NCBI GenBank assembly: GCA_026981615.1
Contig: JALSIH010000199.1
Coordinates: 1-42,516 of the forward strand
Direction: 5' to 3'
Length of the DNA stretch: 42,516 nucleotides
DNA from: Chitinophagales bacterium
GTDB taxonomy: Bacteria > Bacteroidota > Bacteroidia > Chitinophagales > S012-47
The notes beneath the pieces were generated by a model. It searched no databases and was not told the DNA's origin. It was given only the letters and a program-made list of their open reading frames with translations. Numbering within the stretch: the first letter of the stretch is position 1; every line of letters begins with the position of its first letter. Positions 20,286-31,552 of this stretch are shown in pieces. A program made the translations under genes and the position numbers.

Positions 20286-20316
20286 GTTCCTGCCTCCTGT
20301 TAAAGCTCTTAACTTG

Positions 20317-20355
20317 AAAAGCCCCGATGAGCAGTCATCGGGGCTTTTCTTTTTT
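20317..20355 (+). terminator. Strong Rho-independent terminator
   Basis: Stem GCCCCGATGA (20321-20330) with its exact complement (20335-20344), four-base loop GCAG, extended by AAAA/TTTT, then C and six T (to 20355). It closes the receptor/hydrolase unit and insulates the following operon. Confidence 0.93.
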
Positions 20356-20586
20356 CCCCTGCTTCTTATTTCTTATATTGTATTAGCCGCTTAAGTTAAG
20401 CATGGTGCTTCACCCTCGCAGCTTGCATGGGGTCTGACACTTTGGCTTTAATCTTTATCTGTTGCTTTTTTAATATGCCAATATGACGCATATCTTCGGG
20501 AACAGGCTGCTGGAATAAGCTTTGCAGAGGGGCAGTTTGAAAGCATTCAGGACGGCTTATAAGAGCGTAGGAAAGAAACAAGAACT
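20356..20586. promoter_or_regulatory. Upstream region of the stress-island operon
   Basis: No gene is seen. The region must hold the promoter of the long operon starting at 20587, yet no full TAnnTTTG box is present; TATCTTCG (20491-20498) is a one-mismatch candidate without a good -33 partner. No CIRCE-type inverted repeat was found. An alternative sigma factor is possible but unproven. Confidence 0.3.
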
Positions 20587-21174
20587 ATGGCAAGATACTT
20601 CAAACCGGGCGACAAAGTGCAGCTGAAAAACGGGGGGCCCCTTATGACGGTACTGAAATATATAGAGGAGAAGGAGCCGCTGGTGGGAACGGTTGAGAGC
20701 GATGAGTTTCTAGCGTGCGAATGGTTTGACAAAGAAGGCCCGCACCGCGATGTATTCAATCAGAATGCATTAATCAGGGTGGCGTCCGAACTGCAATCTC
20801 CGGATTCGGAGGTCAACCGGGATATTGAGGGAATGAGGCAGGAACAGGAAGACAGGAAGCCGGAAGATGCATGGACCCTCTCCGTAGCGATCGAATACCT
20901 CCATTCACTGGGATACCGCAGTGAGTTTCTTGCGGGACCCGAAGGATTGAGGGATTCCGATACAGGAAAGTTGTATAAGCCGGAGGAGTTGAAAATTGTA
21001 AAAGTATTCCGGTTTGAGGGGAATACGGATTTGGATGATATGTCGGTCTTGTATGCCATCGAGAGCAATGACGGGAAAAAAGGATGGCTGGCAGATGCCT
21101 ACGGGGTATATGCCAATCCTTACCTGCAGGCATACATTGACCGGATTGAGTTGGAAAGAGATATTAAGGGATAG
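20587..21174 (+). CDS. YodC-like (DUF2158) domain fused to a small conserved Bacteroidota domain
   Basis: Residues about 1-67 match the YodC/DUF2158 family: FKPGDKVQLKNGGPLMTV, then CEWFDKEGPHRDVFNQNALI. The C-terminal half (about 95-190: SVAIEYLHSLGYRSEF, FRFEGNTDLDDMSVLYAIES, KGWLADAYGVYANPY) resembles a ~100-aa Bacteroidota protein that databases often label 'phosphoribosylpyrophosphate synthetase' without real support; I recognise it by the 'RFEG..dpDD...YAI' and 'DAYGvYa' blocks. Function of both parts is unknown. 195 aa, cytoplasmic, first gene of the stress-island operon, 17 bases before the DnaJ-like gene. Confidence 0.72.
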   Translation: MARYFKPGDKVQLKNGGPLMTVLKYIEEKEPLVGTVESDEFLACEWFDKEGPHRDVFNQNALIRVASELQSPDSEVNRDIEGMRQEQEDRKPEDAWTLSVAIEYLHSLGYRSEFLAGPEGLRDSDTGKLYKPEELKIVKVFRFEGNTDLDDMSVLYAIESNDGKKGWLADAYGVYANPYLQAYIDRIELERDIKG

Positions 21175-21191: not shown

Positions 21192-22121
21192 TTGGAATAC
21201 AAAGATTACTATAAAATACTGGGAGTTGACAAGAAAGCCTCGCAGGCAGAGATAAAGAAAGCATTCAGAAAGCTGGCCGTGAAATACCACCCGGACAAGA
21301 ACCCCGGGGATAAAAAAGCGGAGGAAAAATTTAAAGAAATCAACGAAGCCTATGAAGTGCTGAAAGACCCGGAGAAACGCAAAAAATATGATGAATTGGG
21401 CGAGAACTGGAGGCACTTTCAGCAGGCGGGCGGACAAGGTGATTTTGACTGGAGCCGGTGGCAGCAGGCCGGAGGCGGCCGGGCATACAGCTATGGCGGA
21501 GATGCATCCGATATTTTCGGAGAAGGCGGTTTTTCCGACTTCTTTTCTACCATTTTCGGAGGCGGGGGCTTTGGCGCTGGCGGCCGCAGAGCGCACAGCC
21601 GGTCGATGAAGGGGCAGGACTATGAGGCAGAGATTGAAGTAACGCTGGAAGAAGCTTTTCACGGCAGCTCGAGAATACTCAATGTCAACGGAAAGAAAAT
21701 CCGTCTGAAACTGAAACCCGGAATTCGTGACGGGCAGGTACTCCGGATAAAGGGCAAAGGAGCTCCGGGAACAAACGGAGGGCCGGCCGGAGACCTCTAT
21801 CTGCGCATCCGCGTTTTGCCGCATCACCTCTATGAGCGGGTAGGAGACAACCTCATGCAGACCCTGAAGGTTGATCTCTTTACGGCTGTACTCGGTGGAA
21901 AAGTGACGGTCAATACCTTCAGCGGACCTGTAAAAATCACGATTCCGGCAGGAAGCTCAAACGGCAAAGTGCTGCGCCTCAAAGGCAAAGGCATGCCGGT
22001 CTACGGCAAAAAAGATGCGTACGGGGACATGCTGGTGAAAATCGAAGTGGAAATACCCGCTGCCGTGACGGATGAGCAGAAGAAGCTTTTCGAAGCGCTG
22101 AGAAAAACATATAAGAACTAA
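21192..22121 (+). CDS. cbpA: DnaJ/CbpA-type co-chaperone
   Basis: Hsp70 co-chaperone of the CbpA (class II DnaJ) type. The J-domain at 1-70 has DYYKILGV and HPD (33-35, KYHPDKNPG). A Gly/Phe-rich linker (about 75-135, with [10 protein letters not shown]) follows, then two DnaJ C-terminal substrate-binding domains ([54 protein letters not shown]). There is no zinc-finger region. The start is TTG at 21192: an in-frame TAA lies just upstream, no ATG exists before the J-domain, and the result ([12 protein letters not shown]) is the family's usual N-terminus. It likely feeds clients to DnaK and the ClpB encoded two genes later. 309 aa. Confidence 0.92.
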
Positions 22122-22137: not shown

Positions 22138-22443
22138 ATGAAAGGAAATTTTAAAGAGCTGATAAATGGCGACAAAGCGGTGCTGGTTGATTTTTCGGCA
22201 GAATGGTGCGGGCCCTGTAAAATGCAGTCGCCCATACTGAAAGAATTGGCCGGAGAGATGAAGGGTAAACTGCGCATCATCAAAATCGATGTCGACAAAA
22301 ATCCCGCTATTGCGGCTCAATACCAGGTGCGCGGGGTTCCCACTCTGATTTTGTTCAGAAACGGGGAGGCCATCTGGAGACAATCGGGTGTGGCAAGCAA
22401 GCCGCAACTGATGCAGATCATCAGCCGGCATTTGGAGACGTAA
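22138..22443 (+). CDS. Thioredoxin
   Basis: Small cytoplasmic thioredoxin, 101 aa, with active site WCGPCKM (Cys24 and Cys27), the cis-Pro motif in RGVPTLILF, and the usual DVDKNPAIAAQYQV block. It begins 16 bases after the DnaJ-like gene and precedes clpB by 54 bases. In this setting it probably repairs or protects thiols during stress rather than being the main housekeeping thioredoxin, which is an inference from context. Confidence 0.93.
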   Translation: MKGNFKELINGDKAVLVDFSAEWCGPCKMQSPILKELAGEMKGKLRIIKIDVDKNPAIAAQYQVRGVPTLILFRNGEAIWRQSGVASKPQLMQIISRHLET

Positions 22444-22497: not shown

Positions 22498-25128
22498 ATG
22501 CAACTGGATAAATTTACCATAAAATCGCAGGAGGCCATACAGAAGGCACAGATGCTTGCGATGGAGAATGAAAACCAGGCCATTGAGCCGGGTCACCTTC
22601 TCAGGGGGGTCATGGATGTCGATGAAAACATCCTTCCCTTTCTTTTTAACAAGCTTTCGATCAATGCCGAGAATGTGAAGCTGGCACTCGAGCGGATTAT
22701 CAAAGGATATCCGAGGGTATCGGGAGCCAACGATCAATATCTCTCGCGCACGGCCAATGAAGTGCTGATGAAGGCATTGAAGATTGCCAAAGACATGGGC
22801 GATGAATATGCTTCGCTGGAGCATCTCATTCTGGCCATGCTGCAGGTCAAAGACCCGGTGGCCAATCTTCTGAAAGACAGCGGCATGAACGAAAAAGACC
22901 TCCGTACGGCCATTGAACAACTTCGAGGGGGCCGCAGAGTGAGCAGCCAGAGTGCGGAGGATACCTATCAATCGCTGTCAAAATATGCCATCAACCTCAA
23001 CGAAAAGGCCAGGAGCGGCAAACTCGATCCCGTGATTGGCCGCGATGAGGAGATCAGGCGGGTTTTGCAGATACTTTCGCGCAGAACCAAAAACAATCCC
23101 ATCCTGGTCGGAGAACCCGGAGTGGGAAAAACGGCCATAGCCGAAGGCATTGCCTTTCGCATCGTCAACGGGGATGTGCCCGATGACCTGAAGGAAAAAG
23201 AACTATGGGCCCTCGACATGGGTGCCCTGATAGCCGGAGCCAAATACAAGGGAGAGTTTGAAGAGAGACTCAAGTCGGTGGTGAAAGAAGTGATGGAAAG
23301 CGAGGGACAAGTAATCCTCTTTATCGATGAGATTCATACCCTTGTGGGTGCCGGAGGCGGACAGGGAGCCATGGATGCCGCCAACATTCTGAAACCGGCC
23401 CTGGCGCGGGGCGAGCTGCGCGCCATCGGAGCCACCACCCTCGATGAATACCAGAAATATTTTGAAAAGGACAAGGCCCTGGAGCGCAGGTTCCAGAAAG
23501 TGCTGGTCGAAGAACCTTCGGAGGAAGATGCCATCTCCATTTTGCGCGGCATCAAAGACCGCTATGAGGCCTATCACAAGATCAGGATTAAAGACGAGGC
23601 CATCGTGGCTGCCGTGCAGCTTTCGTCAAGGTACATTACGGATCGATACCTGCCCGACAAGGCCATTGACCTGATTGACGAGGCGGCTGCCCAGCTGAGA
23701 CTTGAAATGAATTCAAAGCCCGAAGAGCTGGATGTGCTGGAACGAAAAATACAGCAACTGGAGATCGAACGGGAAGCCTTCAAGCGCGAAAAAGATGAAG
23801 AAAAACTGAAACAGATCAACAAGCAACTGGCCGAACTCGAAGAAGAACGCTCCGAACTGATGGCCCTCTGGATGCAGGAAAAAGAAGCTGTTCAGAACAT
23901 TCAAAAAATCAAGGAGGAAATCGAAAGCCTCAAGTTTGAAGCCGAAAAGGCCGAGCGCGAGGGCGACCTGACCCGCGTGGCCGAGATTCGCTACAGCAAG
24001 CTGCCCGATGCCGAAAAACGCCTTAAAGATGCCATCGCAAAATTCCATGAATACGAGGAAGAAGGCAAGCGGCTGGTACGAGAAGAGGTGACGGCCGAAG
24101 ACATAGCAGAAGTGATCTCACGCTGGACGGGCATTCCCGTAAGTAAAATGCTGCGCAGCGAACGCGAGAAGCTGCTGCACATCGAAGAGGAACTGCACAA
24201 GCGGGTGGTCGGGCAGGAAGAGGCCATCCATGCCATTGCAGCCGCCATCAGGCGAAACCGCACGGGACTGGCCGATGAGAACAAGCCCATCGGTTCTTTC
24301 CTTTTCCTCGGTACCACCGGGGTGGGAAAAACCGAGCTGGCCAAAGCGCTGGCCGAATATCTTTTCGACAGCGAAAAAATGATGACCCGCATCGATATGA
24401 GTGAGTATCAGGAAAAACATGCCGTATCAAGACTTATCGGGGCACCTCCCGGCTATGTGGGCTACGAAGAAGGCGGCCAACTGACCGAGGCGGTGCGCAG
24501 GAAACCCTATTCGGTCATCCTGCTCGATGAAATCGAAAAAGCCCACCCCGATACCTTTAATATTCTGCTTCAGGTATTGGAAGACGGCCGGCTGACCGAC
24601 AACAAAGGACGGGTGGCCAACTTCAAGAATACCATCATCATCATGACCAGCAACATGGGCAGCGACATCATTCGCGACAACTTCGAAGATGCCGATGAAA
24701 AGAACATCAACGAAGTCTATGAAAAAACGAAAGTGCTGGTGATGGATCTGCTGAAGACAAGCATCCGGCCCGAATTTCTGAACAGGATAGACGAGGTGAT
24801 CATGTTCAGACCGCTGACCCGGGACGACATCGAAGGCATAATCCGCATTCAACTCATGCACCTGGCCGGGCAACTGGCCAAGCAGGAGATTACCTTCAAT
24901 GTGACGCAAGACCTGCTGGACTACCTCAAAGAGGAAGGCTTCGATATGCAGTTTGGCGCACGACCGCTCAAGCGGGTCATACAGCGCAAAGTGCTGGATG
25001 AACTGGCCGTTGCCATCCTGCAGGACAAAGTGCATCCGGGTTCACACATTGTGATTGATGCCATCGATGGCAAGGTGGTCTTTCGCGAACCGGTAAACGA
25101 TGAGGAGAAACTGCCATTTAGTGTATAA
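22498..25128 (+). CDS. clpB: ATP-dependent chaperone ClpB (Hsp100 disaggregase)
   Basis: Extracts polypeptides from aggregates together with the DnaK/DnaJ system. The double-Clp N-domain (1-145) starts [21 protein letters not shown]+ module 1 has Walker A GEPGVGKT (205-212), Walker [14 protein letters not shown] and the [15 protein letters not shown] segment. The coiled-coil middle domain (about 400-520) is present, which separates ClpB from ClpA/C. Module 2 has Walker A GTTGVGKT (605-612), Walker [10 protein letters not shown], and the pore loop [13 protein letters not shown]. No ClpP-binding loop typical of ClpA/X was noticed. No N-terminal zinc motif as in ClpG/ClpK is seen. 876 aa, slightly longer than typical ClpB. 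Confidence 0.96.
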
Positions 25129-25142
25129 CCCTTCGGGGATGG

Positions 25143-25167
25143 AGGCCGGAGCGTCTTGTTCCGGCCT
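25143..25167 (+). other. Stable hairpin after clpB without T tract
   Basis: AGGCCGGA (25143-25150) pairs perfectly with TCCGGCCT (25160-25167) across a nine-base loop. No T run follows, so it is not a standard terminator; it could protect the upstream message's 3' end or attenuate readthrough to the next gene. Confidence 0.45.
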
Positions 25168-25208
25168 GCACTCCGATTCAAAAAAATAAAAAAATGAAAC
25201 GTCCCTGT

Positions 25209-25248
25209 TTAAATAATTATTTAAGACGCAAGGGAATGATTATTTAAG
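25209..25248. promoter_or_regulatory. 16-bp perfect palindrome plus repeated half-site (candidate operator)
   Basis: TTAAATAATTATTTAA (25209-25224) is a perfect palindrome. The sequence ATTATTTAAG at its right side (25216-25225) recurs at 25239-25248, 23 bases further on. The element sits in the longest internal gap of the operon (25129-25297), 50 bases or more before the HPF-sigma gene. It is AT-rich, so chance is not excluded, but palindrome and repeat together suggest a dimeric regulator site. Confidence 0.5.
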
Positions 25249-25297
25249 CATGGCAAATTCCATGCGGCTTTGATGTTAAAAATTAAAATATAAACTC

Positions 25298-26341
25298 ATG
25301 AAATACATTATTCACAGAAAAGAATTGCTTGAAAGCGAGGGAGTACGGCAAAAGCTCGAAAAAATCGCAGCGGAGAAGGTCAAAAAAATTGAAAAACTGC
25401 TGAAAGGCTATCCGAAGTCGCCTCTCGTAGAGATTTTTATCAGCAAAATCAGCCGGGACAGCTACAGGATGGCCGTTTCGCTCAAACTGAAAAGCCGCCT
25501 CGTATATGTGGACGAGAAAGGACGCGACCCGGAGGATATTTTGAAAAAAGCCTTTGACAAGGTGCTGACGGAGGTGAAAAAGACAAGAGCACGGGAGCGA
25601 AAGGAATACTACTACAAACGAAAGAACCGCAGGGCCGAAGATTTCACCCGGTATGCCTACAAGCTGGATGAATACTACGAAGAAAAGGAAAGGGAACAGT
25701 TTGAGCAGCTGCTCGGGCAGTTGCTGCCCCACATCCGCAATTACGTTTTACGATACATGAAACTCTACGGCAAGGGAAAGCACCTTGTCCTTGATATCAA
25801 AGATGTGATGGATGAGGTGATGAGCGAGCTCTACAATCGCTATGAGGAGCGTCCGAAAAACCCGGCCAATATCTCAGCCTGGTGCTACAAAATTGCCTAC
25901 CGTACCATGCAAAAAATCTTTGCGGACAAAAGCGAAGAAAGCAGCGGAGATATGGATGTCGCGAAGCTGGCCCGCAAAGAGCTGGATGTGATGAATGAGC
26001 GATACACCGTGGACGGGGATGGGGATTATATCATGTTTGAGGAGCTGGATGATATTTCTTACCGCAACTATAAGTTTAGCGATGAGATAGTGCTGAATGA
26101 GAATCTGGAAGAGGATGCAGAGGTGCTCCATGAAATTGAGGACCGGGAATTTCACGATCTGGTGGCCGATGTCCTGGAAGGGCTTCCCGCGGAGCAGCGT
26201 CAGGTGTTTGAGCACTACTGGCTGGATGAAATGACCGAAGAAGAAATTGCGGAGGCTACGGGAAAGAGCAAAGCGGAGATAGCTGCCCTGATCCGGGAAA
26301 CGGGGAGCAGAATCAGGGAAGAACTGGAAAAACTTCATTAA
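25298..26341 (+). CDS. HPF-like ribosome-hibernation domain fused to a sigma-70-like factor
   Basis: The N-terminal ~105 residues look like the HPF/RaiA (S30AE) fold: VEIFISKISRDSYRMAVSLKL, LVYVDEKGRDPEDILKKAFDKVLTEVKK, then a basic run (KKTRARERKEYYYKRKNR). The C-terminal part resembles an ECF-type sigma factor: a region-2-like segment (about 150-205, IKDVMDEVMSELYNRYE... ISAWCYKIAYRTMQKIF) and a region-4 helix-turn-helix (about 285-345, VLEGLPAEQRQVFEHYW, MTEEEIAEATGKSKAEIAALI). An acidic linker lies between them. The protein could join control of ribosome dormancy to transcription. 347 aa. It lies after clpB with its own possible operator. Domain calls are by eye; the fusion is inside one uninterrupted frame. 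Confidence 0.72.
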   Translation: MKYIIHRKELLESEGVRQKLEKIAAEKVKKIEKLLKGYPKSPLVEIFISKISRDSYRMAVSLKLKSRLVYVDEKGRDPEDILKKAFDKVLTEVKKTRARERKEYYYKRKNRRAEDFTRYAYKLDEYYEEKEREQFEQLLGQLLPHIRNYVLRYMKLYGKGKHLVLDIKDVMDEVMSELYNRYEERPKNPANISAWCYKIAYRTMQKIFADKSEESSGDMDVAKLARKELDVMNERYTVDGDGDYIMFEELDDISYRNYKFSDEIVLNENLEEDAEVLHEIEDREFHDLVADVLEGLPAEQRQVFEHYWLDEMTEEEIAEATGKSKAEIAALIRETGSRIREELEKLH

Positions 26342-26358: not shown

Positions 26359-26727
26359 ATGACTTCATATCTGATTGACATACGGAGAGCCGGGCGGAGC
26401 CGGGTATTTAATGAACTGGAGGAAGCGCTGATACACCGGGCCCTGAGCTACAAGGCGAGCAACTTGTGGGACAAGGGTTTCGAAACCCCGGAGGGGCTGC
26501 GCAGGGCGGTGGCGCGGGCCATGCGTGCCTGCCGCAGCGCGGGCATTCCGGTGAGGGAGCACTTCAAGCCGGTCTATGTCTCCGATGAGGCGGAACATCT
26601 CGTGCTACAGGACTGGAGCTTGTCAAAATTTGCCTATTTGCTGGTATTGTTGAATGCCGAAAAGGAGCACCCTCTGGTCAGCCGGCTTCAGGTGCGCCTG
26701 ATCCGTAGTTTTCTCGGAGATCGTTAA
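26359..26727 (+). CDS. Small protein resembling the DinD/BRO-type damage-inducible domain
   Basis: 122 aa, cytoplasmic. The order of motifs is close to the N-terminal part of DNA-damage-inducible protein D as I remember it: LWDKGFETPEGLRRAVARAM (helix), ACRSAGIPVREHFKPVY (compare 'AC..SG....DHF..V'), then WSLSKFAYLLVLLNAEKEHPLV (compare 'LsryAcYLi.qNgDp....i'). It lacks the longer C-terminal half of DinD. It begins 17 bases after the HPF-sigma gene, so it is in the same transcript. If the assignment is right, it links the island to DNA-damage or general stress; otherwise it remains hypothetical. Confidence 0.55.
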   Translation: MTSYLIDIRRAGRSRVFNELEEALIHRALSYKASNLWDKGFETPEGLRRAVARAMRACRSAGIPVREHFKPVYVSDEAEHLVLQDWSLSKFAYLLVLLNAEKEHPLVSRLQVRLIRSFLGDR

Positions 26728-26756: not shown

Positions 26757-27488
26757 ATGATTCCCATTCAGGATACCATACCGTCCCGCAGTTTCCCGGT
26801 GATTACCTGGGCGTTGATCCTGCTTAATACCCTCATTTTTGCCTTGGAGGCGTCCCTTTCTCCGGCCGAGCTGGAGCGGCTGGTCTATGCTTTCGGAGTC
26901 ATTCCGGCACGCTACACCCATCCTGCCTGGGCCGTGTCAATGGGCCTGACCCCCAATGCCTGGTGGCCGTTTCTCAGCAATATGTTTCTGCATGGCGGCC
27001 TGCTGCACCTTGCAGGCAATATGTGGAGCCTCTATATATTTGGCGATAATGTGGAAGACCGCATGGGCCGGGGGCGATTTCTGGTCTTCTACCTCCTCAC
27101 CGGGGTGGCTGCCAGCCTGCTGCACATAGCCGTCAACCCCGATTCCACCATGCCGGCCATCGGAGCCTCCGGAGCCATCTCGGGGGTCATGGGTGCCTAC
27201 ATGTTTCTTTTTCCCCGTGCCCGCATCATATTTCTTATTCCTCTGCTTTTTATTCCCTACTTCGTTGAGATATCGGCCTTCTTTTATCTGGCGCTCTGGT
27301 TCTGGGGGCAGTTTATCAGCGGAACGGCAAGCTCGGTGATGGCACAAAATGCCGGAGGAATCGCCTTTTGGGCACATGTCGGTGGATTTGTGGCCGGAGC
27401 CTTGCTCTATCGCTTTTTTATCCGCGGCCGGCCCAAAGCCTATTATGCCGATGAATACTATAAACGATATATTCACTCACAAACATAA
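26757..27488 (+). CDS. Rhomboid family intramembrane serine protease
   Basis: Cleaves transmembrane helices within the membrane. Six to seven hydrophobic segments are visible. The catalytic dyad is Ser138 in GASGAISG and His207 in FWAHVGGFVAG; the oxyanion-side HLAGN (Asn88) and the upstream FLHGGLLHL block are also present. 243 aa, the usual size. In the operon it precedes a second membrane-linked serine protease, so the two may both handle damaged membrane proteins (inference). Confidence 0.92.
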   Translation: MIPIQDTIPSRSFPVITWALILLNTLIFALEASLSPAELERLVYAFGVIPARYTHPAWAVSMGLTPNAWWPFLSNMFLHGGLLHLAGNMWSLYIFGDNVEDRMGRGRFLVFYLLTGVAASLLHIAVNPDSTMPAIGASGAISGVMGAYMFLFPRARIIFLIPLLFIPYFVEISAFFYLALWFWGQFISGTASSVMAQNAGGIAFWAHVGGFVAGALLYRFFIRGRPKAYYADEYYKRYIHSQT

Positions 27489-27500
27489 ATTCAAAATACA

Positions 27501-28343
27501 ATGAATCAGACATACGATCCCATGTCTTTGTTCTGGCTCTTCTTTATCATCGCTTCTCTGCAGCCGATTATCAGGCAAAAGATGATACAGGCTGCCCGCC
27601 AGCGCATGCTGGCCTCCATCGAGAAGAAGCGCAACAGCCGGGTTATTATGCTGGTGCACCGCCAGGAGTCTATGAGTTTTCTCGGTTTCCCGTTGGTAAA
27701 ATATATCAGCATGGAAGATTCGGAAGAAATACTGCGGGCTTTGGAATCCACCGATGAGGACAAAGACATCGACCTCGTACTGCACACCCCGGGCGGGCTG
27801 GTGCTGGCATCCCTTCAGATTGCCCGCGCCATCAAAAACCGCAAAGGAAAAGTGCGCGTCATTGTGCCGCACTATGCCATGAGCGGTGGCACCCTCATAG
27901 CCCTCGCTGCCGATGAGATCATCATGAGCAAAAATGCCGTTCTCGGGCCGGTAGACCCCCAGCTCGGGGAATATCCGGCAGCTTCCCTCTCAAGGGTAAT
28001 CCGGGAAAAGGACATCAATAAAGTGGATGACAAAACCCTCATTCTGGCCGATGTGGGAGAAAAAGCACTGCGCCAGATCCGGGAGGCCGTGGAAGAACTG
28101 CTGAGCGAAAACTACGGAGAGGAAAAAGCCAAAGAACTGGCTGCAACCCTCAGCCAGGGCACCTGGACACACGACTATGCCATCAATGCCGATATTGCCC
28201 GTGAAATCGGCATACATGTCAGCACGGAGATTCCGGTCGAGTTTCTGCAGTTGATGAGCCTCTATCCGCAGCCGGTAAAAAGGCAGCCCAGCGTGGAATA
28301 TCTGCAATCGCCCGGGCGCCAACGGCATAAAGCGGATGCCTGA
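27501..28343 (+). CDS. SDH family Clp-fold serine protease, membrane-anchored
   Basis: ClpP/crotonase-fold serine protease of the 'serine dehydrogenase proteinase' (SDH) family. A short N-terminal hydrophobic segment (about 8-24, MSLFWLFFIIASLQPII) should anchor it. HTPGG (95-99) gives the oxyanion-type glycines and HYAMSGGTLIAL holds the nucleophile (Ser128), followed by the LGPVDPQLG block characteristic of this family. 280 aa. It begins 12 bases after the rhomboid gene, indicating tight co-expression. Substrates are unknown; membrane quality control is the likely role. Confidence 0.88.
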   Translation: MNQTYDPMSLFWLFFIIASLQPIIRQKMIQAARQRMLASIEKKRNSRVIMLVHRQESMSFLGFPLVKYISMEDSEEILRALESTDEDKDIDLVLHTPGGLVLASLQIARAIKNRKGKVRVIVPHYAMSGGTLIALAADEIIMSKNAVLGPVDPQLGEYPAASLSRVIREKDINKVDDKTLILADVGEKALRQIREAVEELLSENYGEEKAKELAATLSQGTWTHDYAINADIAREIGIHVSTEIPVEFLQLMSLYPQPVKRQPSVEYLQSPGRQRHKADA

Positions 28344-28366: not shown

Positions 28367-29740
28367 ATGGAAGAGCAAAGACTTGGAATTACTTTTCTCG
28401 GAGCTGCCGGCACGGTCACCGGATCGAAGACCCTGCTCGAGGTCAACGGTCTCCGGATACTTATAGATGCCGGGCTTTTTCAGGGTCTCAAGGAGTTGAG
28501 GCAGCTCAATTGGAAAGAGTGGCCGCTCCATCCTTCGCACATCGATTGTGTATTGCTGACCCATGCCCATCTCGATCATTGCGGATATCTTCCGCGCCTG
28601 GTCAAAGAGGGCTTCAGGGGTCCTGTATTCTGCACCCCTCCCACGCTTGATCTGGCGGATATTGTCATGCGCGACAGCGGGAAGATTCAGGAGGAGGATG
28701 CGCGAAAGGCAAATGAGCAGGGCTTCGGCCGTCATCGTCCGGCCCTGCCGCTCTATACCGTGGAAGATGCCATGGCCGTGTTGCCGCTCATGAGGCCCTG
28801 CAACTACCATCAGGAAGTGGAGCTTGGTCACGGAGTACGTTTTTCCTTTTTTAATGCGGGGCACATCCCGGGCTCGGCCGGAGTTCGACTTCAAGGGGCT
28901 GGCAGGCACATTGTCTTCAGCGGTGATCTGGGCCGTAAAAAACCGCTTTTTCTTTACCCGAAAGAGCCCCCGGGGCATGCCGATTATCTCATCTGTGAAT
29001 CCACCTATGGCGACCGGCTTCACAGCAAAACATCTCCCTATCGTGTGATTAAAGAGGCCATTTGGAGAGCTTACCGGAAAAAAAGTGTTCTCCTGATTCC
29101 GGCTTTTGCCATCGAGCGGACCCAGGAAGTGATTTATATTATCCATCGCCTGAGAATGAAAAAGGCACTGCCTCCCATTCCTGTTTATCTGGACAGCCCC
29201 ATGGGCATCAATGCTACGGAGATTATGCTGAAGTATCCGGAGTGGCACCGCCTGAGTGAAGCAGAGGCCAAAGCGATGGTAGATGCCGTGAAGCTGATTC
29301 GTGACCCGCGCAGCTCGCGCGCGCTCGTTCACAAAGGAGAAACGGCCGTGATTATGGCCGGAAGCGGAATGATCGAAGGGGGGCGCATCCTGGATTACCT
29401 GGAGCGATACCTGTCCGACTCCGATGCGGGGCTCCTGCTGGTCGGCTTTCAGGCCGAGGGCACCCGCGGAAGGGCATTGCTCGAAGGGGCCGGTGAATTA
29501 AAATTCCACGGGCGCTACCACAAGGTCAAAGCCCATATCCGCCATCTGGACTCCCTGTCGGCACATGCCGACCAGAAGGAATTGCTGGAATGGTTGCAGC
29601 AGGTGAAATCAAAACCGAAACGCATTTTTCTCAATCATGGCGAGCGGCATCAGGCCGATGCCCTGCGTGTGAAAATTGAGACTCTGCTGGGCTGGGAAGT
29701 CCGGATTCCCCGAATTGGTCAATACTTTGCACTTGGCTGA
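28367..29740 (+). CDS. MBL-fold beta-CASP RNase (CPSF/YSH1-like)
   Basis: Zinc-dependent nuclease of the beta-CASP family, which includes CPSF-73-like RNA-processing enzymes. The metallo-beta-lactamase motif is HAHLDH (66-71) in LLTHAHLDHCGYLP, and further metal ligands lie in GHIPGSAGVRL and FSGDLGRK. The beta-CASP portion is shown by ICESTYGDRLH, AFAIERTQEVIYIIHRL, IMAGSGMIEGGRILDYL and the C-terminal SLSAHADQKELLEWL and LNHGE blocks. 457 aa, normal. No KH domain is seen. It begins 23 bases after the SDH protease gene. Confidence 0.92.
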   Translation: MEEQRLGITFLGAAGTVTGSKTLLEVNGLRILIDAGLFQGLKELRQLNWKEWPLHPSHIDCVLLTHAHLDHCGYLPRLVKEGFRGPVFCTPPTLDLADIVMRDSGKIQEEDARKANEQGFGRHRPALPLYTVEDAMAVLPLMRPCNYHQEVELGHGVRFSFFNAGHIPGSAGVRLQGAGRHIVFSGDLGRKKPLFLYPKEPPGHADYLICESTYGDRLHSKTSPYRVIKEAIWRAYRKKSVLLIPAFAIERTQEVIYIIHRLRMKKALPPIPVYLDSPMGINATEIMLKYPEWHRLSEAEAKAMVDAVKLIRDPRSSRALVHKGETAVIMAGSGMIEGGRILDYLERYLSDSDAGLLLVGFQAEGTRGRALLEGAGELKFHGRYHKVKAHIRHLDSLSAHADQKELLEWLQQVKSKPKRIFLNHGERHQADALRVKIETLLGWEVRIPRIGQYFALG

Positions 29741-29786: not shown

Positions 29787-30365
29787 ATGCGTCCACCCGT
29801 CCGGCAAGTCATTCTCTTTGTTTCCACGGCCGTTATTACGGTCTCCGGCTATCTGCTGGTGCGCAGCATTCTCGAAAGCAAAGGAGCGGCTTCCATCACC
29901 TTTGAGCTTTATGCGGCTTTGCTGGGCGTCATCCTGACGGCACTCATCACATTTGCCCTGCTCAGCAAACAAACGCAGGCCGAACTCAACAAAGAAGAAT
30001 CCATCAAATTCTTAGACCTGAAAATCAGTGTCTATACCGAATTGATCAATCAGGTGCAGGACATCATGACCAAGGCGGAAATTACGGACATTGATATGAT
30101 TGAGATTCGCCTGCTCAATCAAAAGATAACCTATGTGGCCAGCGTGGATGTGCTGGAAGCCTTCAACAGATTTGCCGATGCATTTGCACGCAAAGCACGC
30201 AAAGAGAAAATAACGGACAACGACATGGACGATCTTCTGCTCAGGCTGAGCGATGTTTCGCTGGCCGTGAGAGAAGACTTGTTAAGCTCCCGTGAGTCGA
30301 AAGAGATAAGGGAAAAAGTGCGTGAGCGCTTATTAAGCAGTAATAAATATCTGGATCTGGAATAA
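29787..30365 (+). CDS. Small membrane protein with long cytoplasmic helical tail
   Basis: No family recognised. Two hydrophobic segments (about 7-27 and 39-60) are followed by ~130 mostly helical, charged residues (QTQAELNKEESIKFLDLKIS... VREDLLSSRESKEIREKVRE), probably forming a coiled coil. 192 aa. Its TAA overlaps the ATG of the Kef-type antiporter (TAATG), so translation is coupled, and a role as subunit or regulator of that antiporter is a reasonable guess. Confidence 0.7.
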   Translation: MRPPVRQVILFVSTAVITVSGYLLVRSILESKGAASITFELYAALLGVILTALITFALLSKQTQAELNKEESIKFLDLKISVYTELINQVQDIMTKAEITDIDMIEIRLLNQKITYVASVDVLEAFNRFADAFARKARKEKITDNDMDDLLLRLSDVSLAVREDLLSSRESKEIREKVRERLLSSNKYLDLE

Positions 30366-31552
30366 TGATATTTCTTGCCGGCATGGGTCATTTGCTGAAT
30401 GGCATTGTCATCATATCGCTGACCATTCTGCTGCTTGCCGTCTTGCTGAAAAGGCTGAAGCAGCCCTATTTCATTGCCTACATACTGGCCGGGGTCTTGC
30501 TCGGCCCCGAGGGCTTTGCCGTCATCAGTGACCGGGAGAGCATCATGCAACTCGGTGAGCTGGGCATTGTTTTGCTCATGTTTTTTATCGGTGCCGAAAT
30601 TCGCCTGCCCGACCTGCAAAAGCAATTCATAAAGCCGGTAGTGGCCACACTGAGTCAGCTTGTCTTAAGTTTTGCATTCATCTTTCTTTTGGGTATGCGT
30701 CTTGCCTGGAGTTGGCATCTTGTCGTGCTGATGAGCTTCATTGTCAGTCTGAGCAGCTCGGCCATCATTTTTCAATATCTCAGCAAGAGCGGAGAAATCA
30801 ATACCCGCCTGGGGCTGCTCACTTCGGGGGTGCTGCTCGTTCAGGATATGCTGGTTGTGCCCATGTTGCTTACGATCAGCTTTATGGTCGAAGGCAGTGT
30901 GGAAGTGGCGGATATTGTTCGTATGCTTCTCGGGGCGATTCTTATTCTTGCCTTTCTGTGGGCGGCTGTCCGGCAGCGTCTTTTTCGCATCCCTTTTCAT
31001 CGCGAGATTGAAAAAGACCACGACCTGCAGGTCTTTGTCGGCTTTCTTGTCTGTTTCGGATTTGCATGGGTCAGCCAATGGTTTGGCCTGTCAGCGGCTT
31101 TGGGCGCCTTTGTCGCAGGCATTCTCATTGCACAGGATGATTCCACCCGCTGGCTCGACCGGGCCATGGTGCCCTTCCGTGTCTTTTTTCTTACTTTTTT
31201 CTTTCTGGCCATCGGCCTCCAGCTCGATTTGCATTTTCTCAGCGACAATATCCTCCTCGTGATGCTCATTGTGCTCTTTGTTATGCTGAGCAACAGCTTG
31301 ATCAATGCACTCATCTTCAGATTTCTCGGCAGTTCCTGGCGAAACAGCATCTATGCCGGGGCCTTGCTTTCTCAGATCGGGGAATTCAGCTTTGTCCTTG
31401 CCGCCACAGCCTTTGCCGGGGGTATAATCGGAGATTTTATTTATCAGCTTACTTTGTCGGTCATTTCTCTTACCATGGTATTCACCGTCCTATGGATTTC
31501 CATAATCCGGCAGGCAATCTATCCCGGGCACGGAAAACGGGATTTGACGTAA
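30365..31552 (+). CDS. Kef-type cation:proton antiporter (CPA2 family)
   Basis: Polytopic membrane protein with about 11-12 helices and the CPA2 pattern: LKRLKQPYFIAYILAGVLLGPEGFA near the N-terminus, MSFIVSLSSSAIIFQYL, LLVQDMLVVPMLLTIS and GLSAALGAFVAGILIAQ, followed by FLTFFFLAIGLQLDL. These match KefB/KefC and related K+/H+ antiporters. It is 395 aa, ending after the transport domain, so the TrkA-N/RCK regulatory domain of true KefB/C is absent. It is the last gene of the operon and converges on a gene ending 20 bases away. K+ efflux under electrophile or heat stress is the inferred role. Confidence 0.88.
   Translation: MIFLAGMGHLLNGIVIISLTILLLAVLLKRLKQPYFIAYILAGVLLGPEGFAVISDRESIMQLGELGIVLLMFFIGAEIRLPDLQKQFIKPVVATLSQLVLSFAFIFLLGMRLAWSWHLVVLMSFIVSLSSSAIIFQYLSKSGEINTRLGLLTSGVLLVQDMLVVPMLLTISFMVEGSVEVADIVRMLLGAILILAFLWAAVRQRLFRIPFHREIEKDHDLQVFVGFLVCFGFAWVSQWFGLSAALGAFVAGILIAQDDSTRWLDRAMVPFRVFFLTFFFLAIGLQLDLHFLSDNILLVMLIVLFVMLSNSLINALIFRFLGSSWRNSIYAGALLSQIGEFSFVLAATAFAGGIIGDFIYQLTLSVISLTMVFTVLWISIIRQAIYPGHGKRDLT

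Follow-up and report, generated by a model that had tools for sequence, protein, structure and literature searches.

A Bacteroidota protein family joining an HPF-like domain to sigma-70-like regions, and its possible part in ribosome hibernation

Can a single protein tie ribosome hibernation to the control of RNA polymerase? The question is raised by one gene in the window analysed here, a stretch of 42,516 nucleotides that corresponds to the complete contig G000:C199 in a genome of 2.66 Mb assembled as 232 contigs. S30AE proteins used to be called sigma-54 modulation proteins, alternative sigma genes are frequent neighbours of hibernation genes, and we know of no description of a single molecule that ties hibernation and sigma together. 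Our search of the open-access literature (subscription papers and preprints lay outside it) found no description of an HPF-sigma fusion. Both domains are of known kinds; what is new is their combination and a sigma half that seems to be blind to DNA. With this family, a physical connection from ribosome hibernation to the control of sigma or RNA polymerase becomes testable, and ribosome shutdown may be joined to transcription by mimicry rather than by direct gene switching.

The fusion gene occupies positions 25298-26341 of the + strand, starts with ATG and encodes 347 amino acids. One polypeptide comprises an HPF/S30AE-like N-terminal domain (approximately residues 1-110) and a C-terminal domain with sigma-70 regions 2 and 4 (residues 134-343; Table 1). 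We accept both halves on the strength of sequence profiles, PDB profile searches, and AlphaFold2 and Foldseek results. The initial annotation, which had read the frame as an S30AE-like and sigma fusion, was thus borne out: the ORF is exact, and each half is recovered by profile and by fold. Structure prediction, which it had named as the test that could refute the fusion, returned S30AE-like and sigma-like folds, and the proposed HMM searches agree, directly for the sigma half and through homologues for the other. The AlphaFold2 model was built on an alignment only two sequences deep (the window protein and one orthologue), so confidence in its C-terminal half is moderate. Residues 116-133 of the linker have 94% amino acid identity between the window protein and that of the sister species G001.

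Table 1. Positions of the fusion protein's segments and of neighbouring features in the window
Feature	Position	Strand	Remarks
DUF2158 gene	20587..21174	+	First gene of presumed operon
DnaJ-type co-chaperone	21192..22121	+	
Thioredoxin	22138..22443	+	
ClpB-type disaggregase	22498..25128	+	
RNA hairpin between clpB and fusion gene	25133..25176	+	-33 kcal/mol, z -5.4
HPF/S30AE-like domain, residues 1-110	25298..25627	+	Profiles, AlphaFold2, Foldseek
Linker helix, residues 111-133	25628..25696	+	AlphaFold2, low confidence, pLDDT 32-47
Sigma region 2, residues 134-211	25697..25930	+	Profile matches, charge comparison
Acidic insert, residues 212-286	25931..26155	+	pI 4.05, net -18, predicted mostly disordered
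Sigma region 4, residues 287-347	26156..26338	+	Profile matches, charge comparison
122-aa protein	26359..26727	+	17 bp downstream of fusion gene, candidate partner
Rhomboid protease	26757..27488	+	
SDH-type ClpP-like serine protease	27501..28343	+	
Beta-CASP metallo-beta-lactamase-fold RNase-like protein	28367..29740	+	
KefB-like cation/proton antiporter	30365..31552	+	

In a Pfam search the window protein alone has no S30AE match at E ≤ 1. PF02482 matches occur in 5 of the 15 full-length homologues (best E 3.3e-8), and in the genome scan three homologues exceed the cut-off of 23.7 bits (36.5, 25.0 and 23.8 bits); the N-terminal domain of a G951 member that is cut off by its contig also passes (25.8 bits). 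When a profile of 17 N-domain sequences was searched against the PDB, HPF/YfiA structures were the best matches (E 6.2e-6) and 23 of the 24 matches listed were S30AE/HPF-type proteins; a profile of 29 canonical Bacteroidota HPFs aligned to the N-domain profile with an hhalign probability of 94.8 (E 5.5e-8). AlphaFold2 predicts a beta-alpha-beta-beta-beta-alpha order over about residues 1-100, with pLDDT mostly 70-87, and Foldseek, run on this one model, ranked HPFs top for the N-terminal half (TM on target of 0.71-0.81 for the better ones).

The N-terminal half is also strongly basic (residues 1-115, pI 9.96, net +15). Its ribosome-facing helices are no less basic than the corresponding helices of canonical HPFs, with family mean charges of +2.2 versus +1.0 for alpha1 and +2.9 versus +1.9 for alpha2. 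The domain ends in a conserved E-R-K-x-Y-x-x-K-R-K tail, and stand-alone relatives in G248, G093, G891 and G1000 stop at the same end point. HPF and YfiA occupy the 30S decoding channel during stress; long HPF carries a different C-terminal dimerisation domain and makes 100S dimers. The N-domain shares fold, basic helices and profile-level homology with HPF/RaiA (YfiA), but among the PDB matches and the literature searched there was no HPF with sigma regions 2 and 4.

For the C-terminal half, sequence-profile searches and Foldseek (again on one model) led to ECF and related sigma factors. TIGR02937 (sigma70-ECF) matches residues 134-343 over its cut-off, at 65.3 bits and E 4.8e-18, and is matched by 15 of 16 family members. 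The Pfam models Sigma70_r4_2 and Sigma70_r4 also exceed their cut-offs; Sigma70_r2 falls below (20.2 versus 24 bits), and the region 2 fold is additionally backed by PDB profile matches and by the predicted structure. The model has helical domains at residues 125-211 and 282-347; the stretch linking them is of low confidence and mostly unstructured.

Is this half still a sigma factor in the functional sense? We set 26 C-domains of the family against ten ordinary ECF sigmas drawn from five of the genomes that carry family members. Mean net charge is -1.8 in the family versus +2.5 in the ECF sigmas for regions 2.3-2.4 (Mann-Whitney p 2.5e-5), and +0.2 versus +4.0 for region 4.2 (p 1.4e-4), p-values that treat related sequences as independent and so overstate the strength of the difference. 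An Asn in region 2.3, which together with a basic tract serves -10 recognition and melting in ECF sigmas, is present in all ten of them and kept by 2 of the 26 family members, and the window protein has Arg202 there. The Lys or Arg in region 4.2 of every ECF sigma, in the basic helix that recognises the -35 element, is found in 4 of 26, with Glu in 14 of 26 and A329 in the window protein. The side of region 2.2 that we take to be core-facing is better preserved: its Asp is D or E in 20 of 26, and 19 of 26 have E or D four residues further along. Region 2 of the window protein keeps both acidic residues (D169 and E173) and has lost the Asn and the basic tract of regions 2.3-2.4, which are near neutral (+1) rather than acidic; its region 4.2 is likewise at +1.

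The whole C-domain of the window protein has a pI of 4.57 and a net charge of -26, compared with pI 6.1-9.3 and net -2 to +5 for the ECF sigmas, and pI values across the fused members are 4.4-4.9. Regions 2 and 4 of ECF sigmas are separated by fewer than 50 residues (PMC8103513); in the window protein the spacing is 75. The insert bears a family signature, TVDGDGDxxMxEELDDISYH, which in the window protein reads TVDGDGDYIMFEELDDISYR, and across residues 232-262 G000 and G001 show no amino acid difference despite a pS of 0.42. A weak Pfam match to baeRF_family2 inside the insert is far below threshold. The fusion shares with group IV (ECF) sigma-70 factors the region 2 and 4 folds and the TIGR02937 match, but differs in the absence of the DNA-contact residues of regions 2.3-2.4 and 4.2, in the 75-residue acidic insert and in the ribosomal N-domain. 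Judged from these alignments, the C-terminal half appears to be a degenerate sigma, its promoter-facing surfaces lost or charge-reversed across the family.

Every domain of the fusion is under purifying selection. Between G000 and G001, dN/dS is about 0.07 throughout: 0.071 overall, 0.078 for the HPF domain, 0.069 for region 2, 0.068 for the insert and 0.074 for region 4.

Our preferred interpretation, held with moderate confidence, is that the fusion is not a promoter-directing sigma factor but a ribosome-hibernation-type protein, with a pseudo-sigma tail that binds either an anti-sigma factor or core RNA polymerase. It is favoured by the HPF homology and basic helices of one half, and by the sigma homology, DNA-side loss, region 2.2 acidity and 75-residue spacing of the other. 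The basic HPF/S30AE domain would be expected to enter the 30S decoding channel during stress. Because the region 2 and 4 folds are kept and the DNA-contact residues are not, the acidic C-terminal part would most likely bind one of these two sigma partners and not a promoter. Under stress that promotes ribosome occupancy, the supply of that partner might then change, or RNA polymerase and ribosomes might be held together idle. Points against this interpretation are that regions 2.3-2.4 and 4.2 of the window protein itself are each at +1 and not acidic, that ECF DNA contacts vary and that the comparison panel comprised only ten sequences.

Purifying selection, the hibernation and stress genes nearby, and a precedent from another lineage add to the support for a pseudo-sigma tail. 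Sigma mimicry operates in the stress response through PhyR, NepR and EcfG (PMC8999054). The PhyR-type anti-anti-sigma mimics of Alphaproteobacteria resemble the fusion in joining a sigma-like domain to a sensory domain and in serving a general stress response, and the DNA-side loss seen here would be consistent with mimic-type binding of an anti-sigma factor without promoter binding. The attached domain of the fusion is, however, HPF-like, the lineage is unrelated, and Pfam and PDB profile searches found no receiver domain in it; the fusion is not a PhyR family member. Weak PhyR-family matches among members were considered as a sign of mimicry and rejected, since they reflect shared sigma ancestry. 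Pfam/TIGR-type profile scans of the window genes recognised no anti-sigma gene adjoining the fusion gene; the gene downstream for a 122-aa protein is an unassigned candidate.

The strongest competitor, though we think it unlikely, is that the protein is a working alternative sigma with a ribosome-sensing N-domain, engagement with or release from the ribosome masking or freeing the sigma half so that it transcribes the proteostasis island. Some ECF sigmas are known to carry regulatory extensions (PMC8103513), the complete region 2 and region 4 architecture is under purifying selection, and TIGR02937 is matched over its cut-off. Counting against mimicry, the acidic insert could act as a mask with a regulatory role, its displacement or removal yielding a working sigma. 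Set against this are the loss of DNA-contact residues across the family, the excessive size of the insert, and a sigma scan of six genomes in which fusion proteins were among the weakest matches, several of them below the cut-off in their own genomes. The suggestion in the initial annotation that the fusion directs RNA polymerase to the island's own promoters therefore finds no support, the ECF DNA-contact residues apparently being lost or charge-reversed throughout the family. Its remark that the operon start lacks a standard -7 box is correct, as there is no TAnnTTTG in 20286-20586. This absence carries little weight, because the 42.5-kb window holds 19 such motifs versus 22.6 expected by chance. 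A non-coding block of ~60 bp upstream of the operon start (~20435-20500) is conserved in both species of the genus, lacks TAnnTTTG and is a possible promoter or operator; it speaks for a working sigma.

Somewhat more doubtful than a working sigma is a bridging factor, with the HPF end on the 30S decoding channel and the pseudo-sigma end on core RNA polymerase, which would shut both down jointly, exclude the housekeeping sigma and possibly replace canonical HPF in the genus. 

Neither PF02482 nor the profile of 29 HPFs found a canonical HPF in three fusion-bearing genomes, G000 (94% complete), G001 (98%) and G003 (82%). G002, which belongs to the same family, has a canonical HPF and yielded no fusion, and most other fusion-bearing genomes retain theirs. 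As neither G000 nor G001 shows one, the fusion may have replaced canonical HPF in the genus and may act in its stead; the apparent gap is suggestive only, being drawn from four draft genomes, all incomplete.

We regard as less probable than either a working sigma or a bridging factor that the sigma fold has been reused in a hibernation factor, its acidic C-domain binding the ribosome, an island protein or a second copy of the fusion and never RNA polymerase. The acidic, disordered insert and the degenerate sigma surfaces suit such reuse, as do the position of the gene among chaperones and proteases and the co-occurrence of the downstream 122-aa protein and the family in two further genera. Regions 2 and 4 are nonetheless kept, including the acidic residues of region 2.2, for which a domain serving dimerisation alone would have no use, and the sigma-only form is present alone in many genomes. 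We accordingly rank a hibernation protein with a sigma-mimic tail first, a true promoter-directing sigma second and fold reuse apart from RNA polymerase third. That a long helical protein resembles HPF and sigma by chance or through an annotation artefact is scarcely credible and is refuted by the PF02482 matches of homologues, the PDB profile matches and Foldseek: the single sequence's lack of an S30AE match would suit it, but profile, structure and gene-split evidence stand independently against it.

How widespread is the combination? Genome searches gave matches in 14 of 299 genomes at the level of the order, 10 of 395 for the class and 11 of 396 for the phylum, sets that overlap and include sigma-only and split forms. 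The genome-collection scan recovered nothing but the 89% orthologue, in a Chitinophagales MAG. Full-length fusions were recovered from eight or more Bacteroidota genera (G000/G001, G003, G020/G278, G023/G231/G283, G190, G270, G366 and G691, the last assigned from an A4 profile match over 28-336 plus a region 4 match), in addition to the truncated G951. The G366 protein, on a long branch and without the DGDGD motif, may have arisen as a fusion independently. The gene is not evidently mobile, given that a plasmid tblastn search found no match to it and a scan of viral contigs no relative.

The two halves also occur apart. G248 encodes an HPF-like protein (114 aa) and a sigma-like protein (224 aa), whose genes flank an HdeD-like gene and have YfdX next to them; in G093 and G1000 the HPF-like and sigma-like halves lie on different contigs, and in G891 the HPF-like gene adjoins an HdeD-like gene. 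The sigma-like half is found alone in flavobacterial genomes, sometimes adjoining DnaJ, Hsp20 or baeRF. In the HPF-domain tree, whose deep branches are weak, the two stand-alone copies tested fall within the fused group (93/91), apart from canonical HPFs, and fused and sigma-only forms are intermixed in the sigma tree. The placement of the stand-alone HPF copies agrees with a fusion having split or having lost its other half.

Stand-alone HPF genes of the island type are paired with HdeD-like genes at three loci (L042 6216-8973, L135 8701-9587 and L043 8115-9004), and their products end in E-[RK]-K-D-Y-x-Y-K-R-K, matching the fused domain. Genes of the baeRF family lie beside the sigma-only form in two flavobacterial-type genomes (L048 8968-10122 and L050 6651-7832).

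The gene run around the fusion reads as a proteostasis and stress operon. Its genes lie on the same strand with gaps mostly of 12-55 bp and one of 169 bp immediately before the fusion gene; a gene for a 192-aa protein lies between those for the beta-CASP protein and the KefB-like antiporter. Fused and sigma-only members are repeatedly, and not always, near DnaJ, Hsp20, Trx, FtsH, ClpB, rhomboid, SDH protease, YfdX and HdeD, the islands of relatives adding Hsp20, FtsH, YfdX, HdeD and baeRF. By eye, neighbours in G270, G366, G395 and G512 are metabolic or unrelated, and a second copy in G000/G001 adjoins citrate synthase. The 122-aa protein encoded downstream has a weak resemblance to DinD, and its homologues in G484 and G190 lie in islands of this kind.

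Two known arrangements invite comparison. In Balon operons, hibernation genes stand beside genes for Hsp20, DnaK/DnaJ, HdeD, RaiA and alternative sigma-70 factors (PMC10901736). The parts list matches that of Balon/baeRF operons, with hibernation, Hsp20, DnaJ, HdeD and alternative sigma-70 genes side by side, but there the factors are separate genes, whereas here HPF and sigma-like domains form one polypeptide. The core of the tLST/LHR stress island is a dna-hsp20-clpK(clpG) module (PMC8290217). Islands of the fusion family overlap with the tLST/LHR island in Hsp20, Clp disaggregase, FtsH, YfdX, HdeD, Trx and KefB; they differ in phylum and gene set, with a ClpB-type disaggregase instead of ClpK and with rhomboid, SDH protease and the HPF-sigma fusion in addition. 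The window operon has ClpB, DnaJ and Trx, and its scanned genes include no recognisable Hsp20 or dna gene.

The gap after clpB holds two features. Positions 25196-25297, immediately ahead of the fusion gene's start codon, hold ~102 nt that are extra relative to the sister species, AT-rich and with inverted repeats; a dispersed repeat was considered and rejected, as the insertion is single copy in the genome. No U-run follows the upstream RNA hairpin, and its stem is conserved in the sister species.
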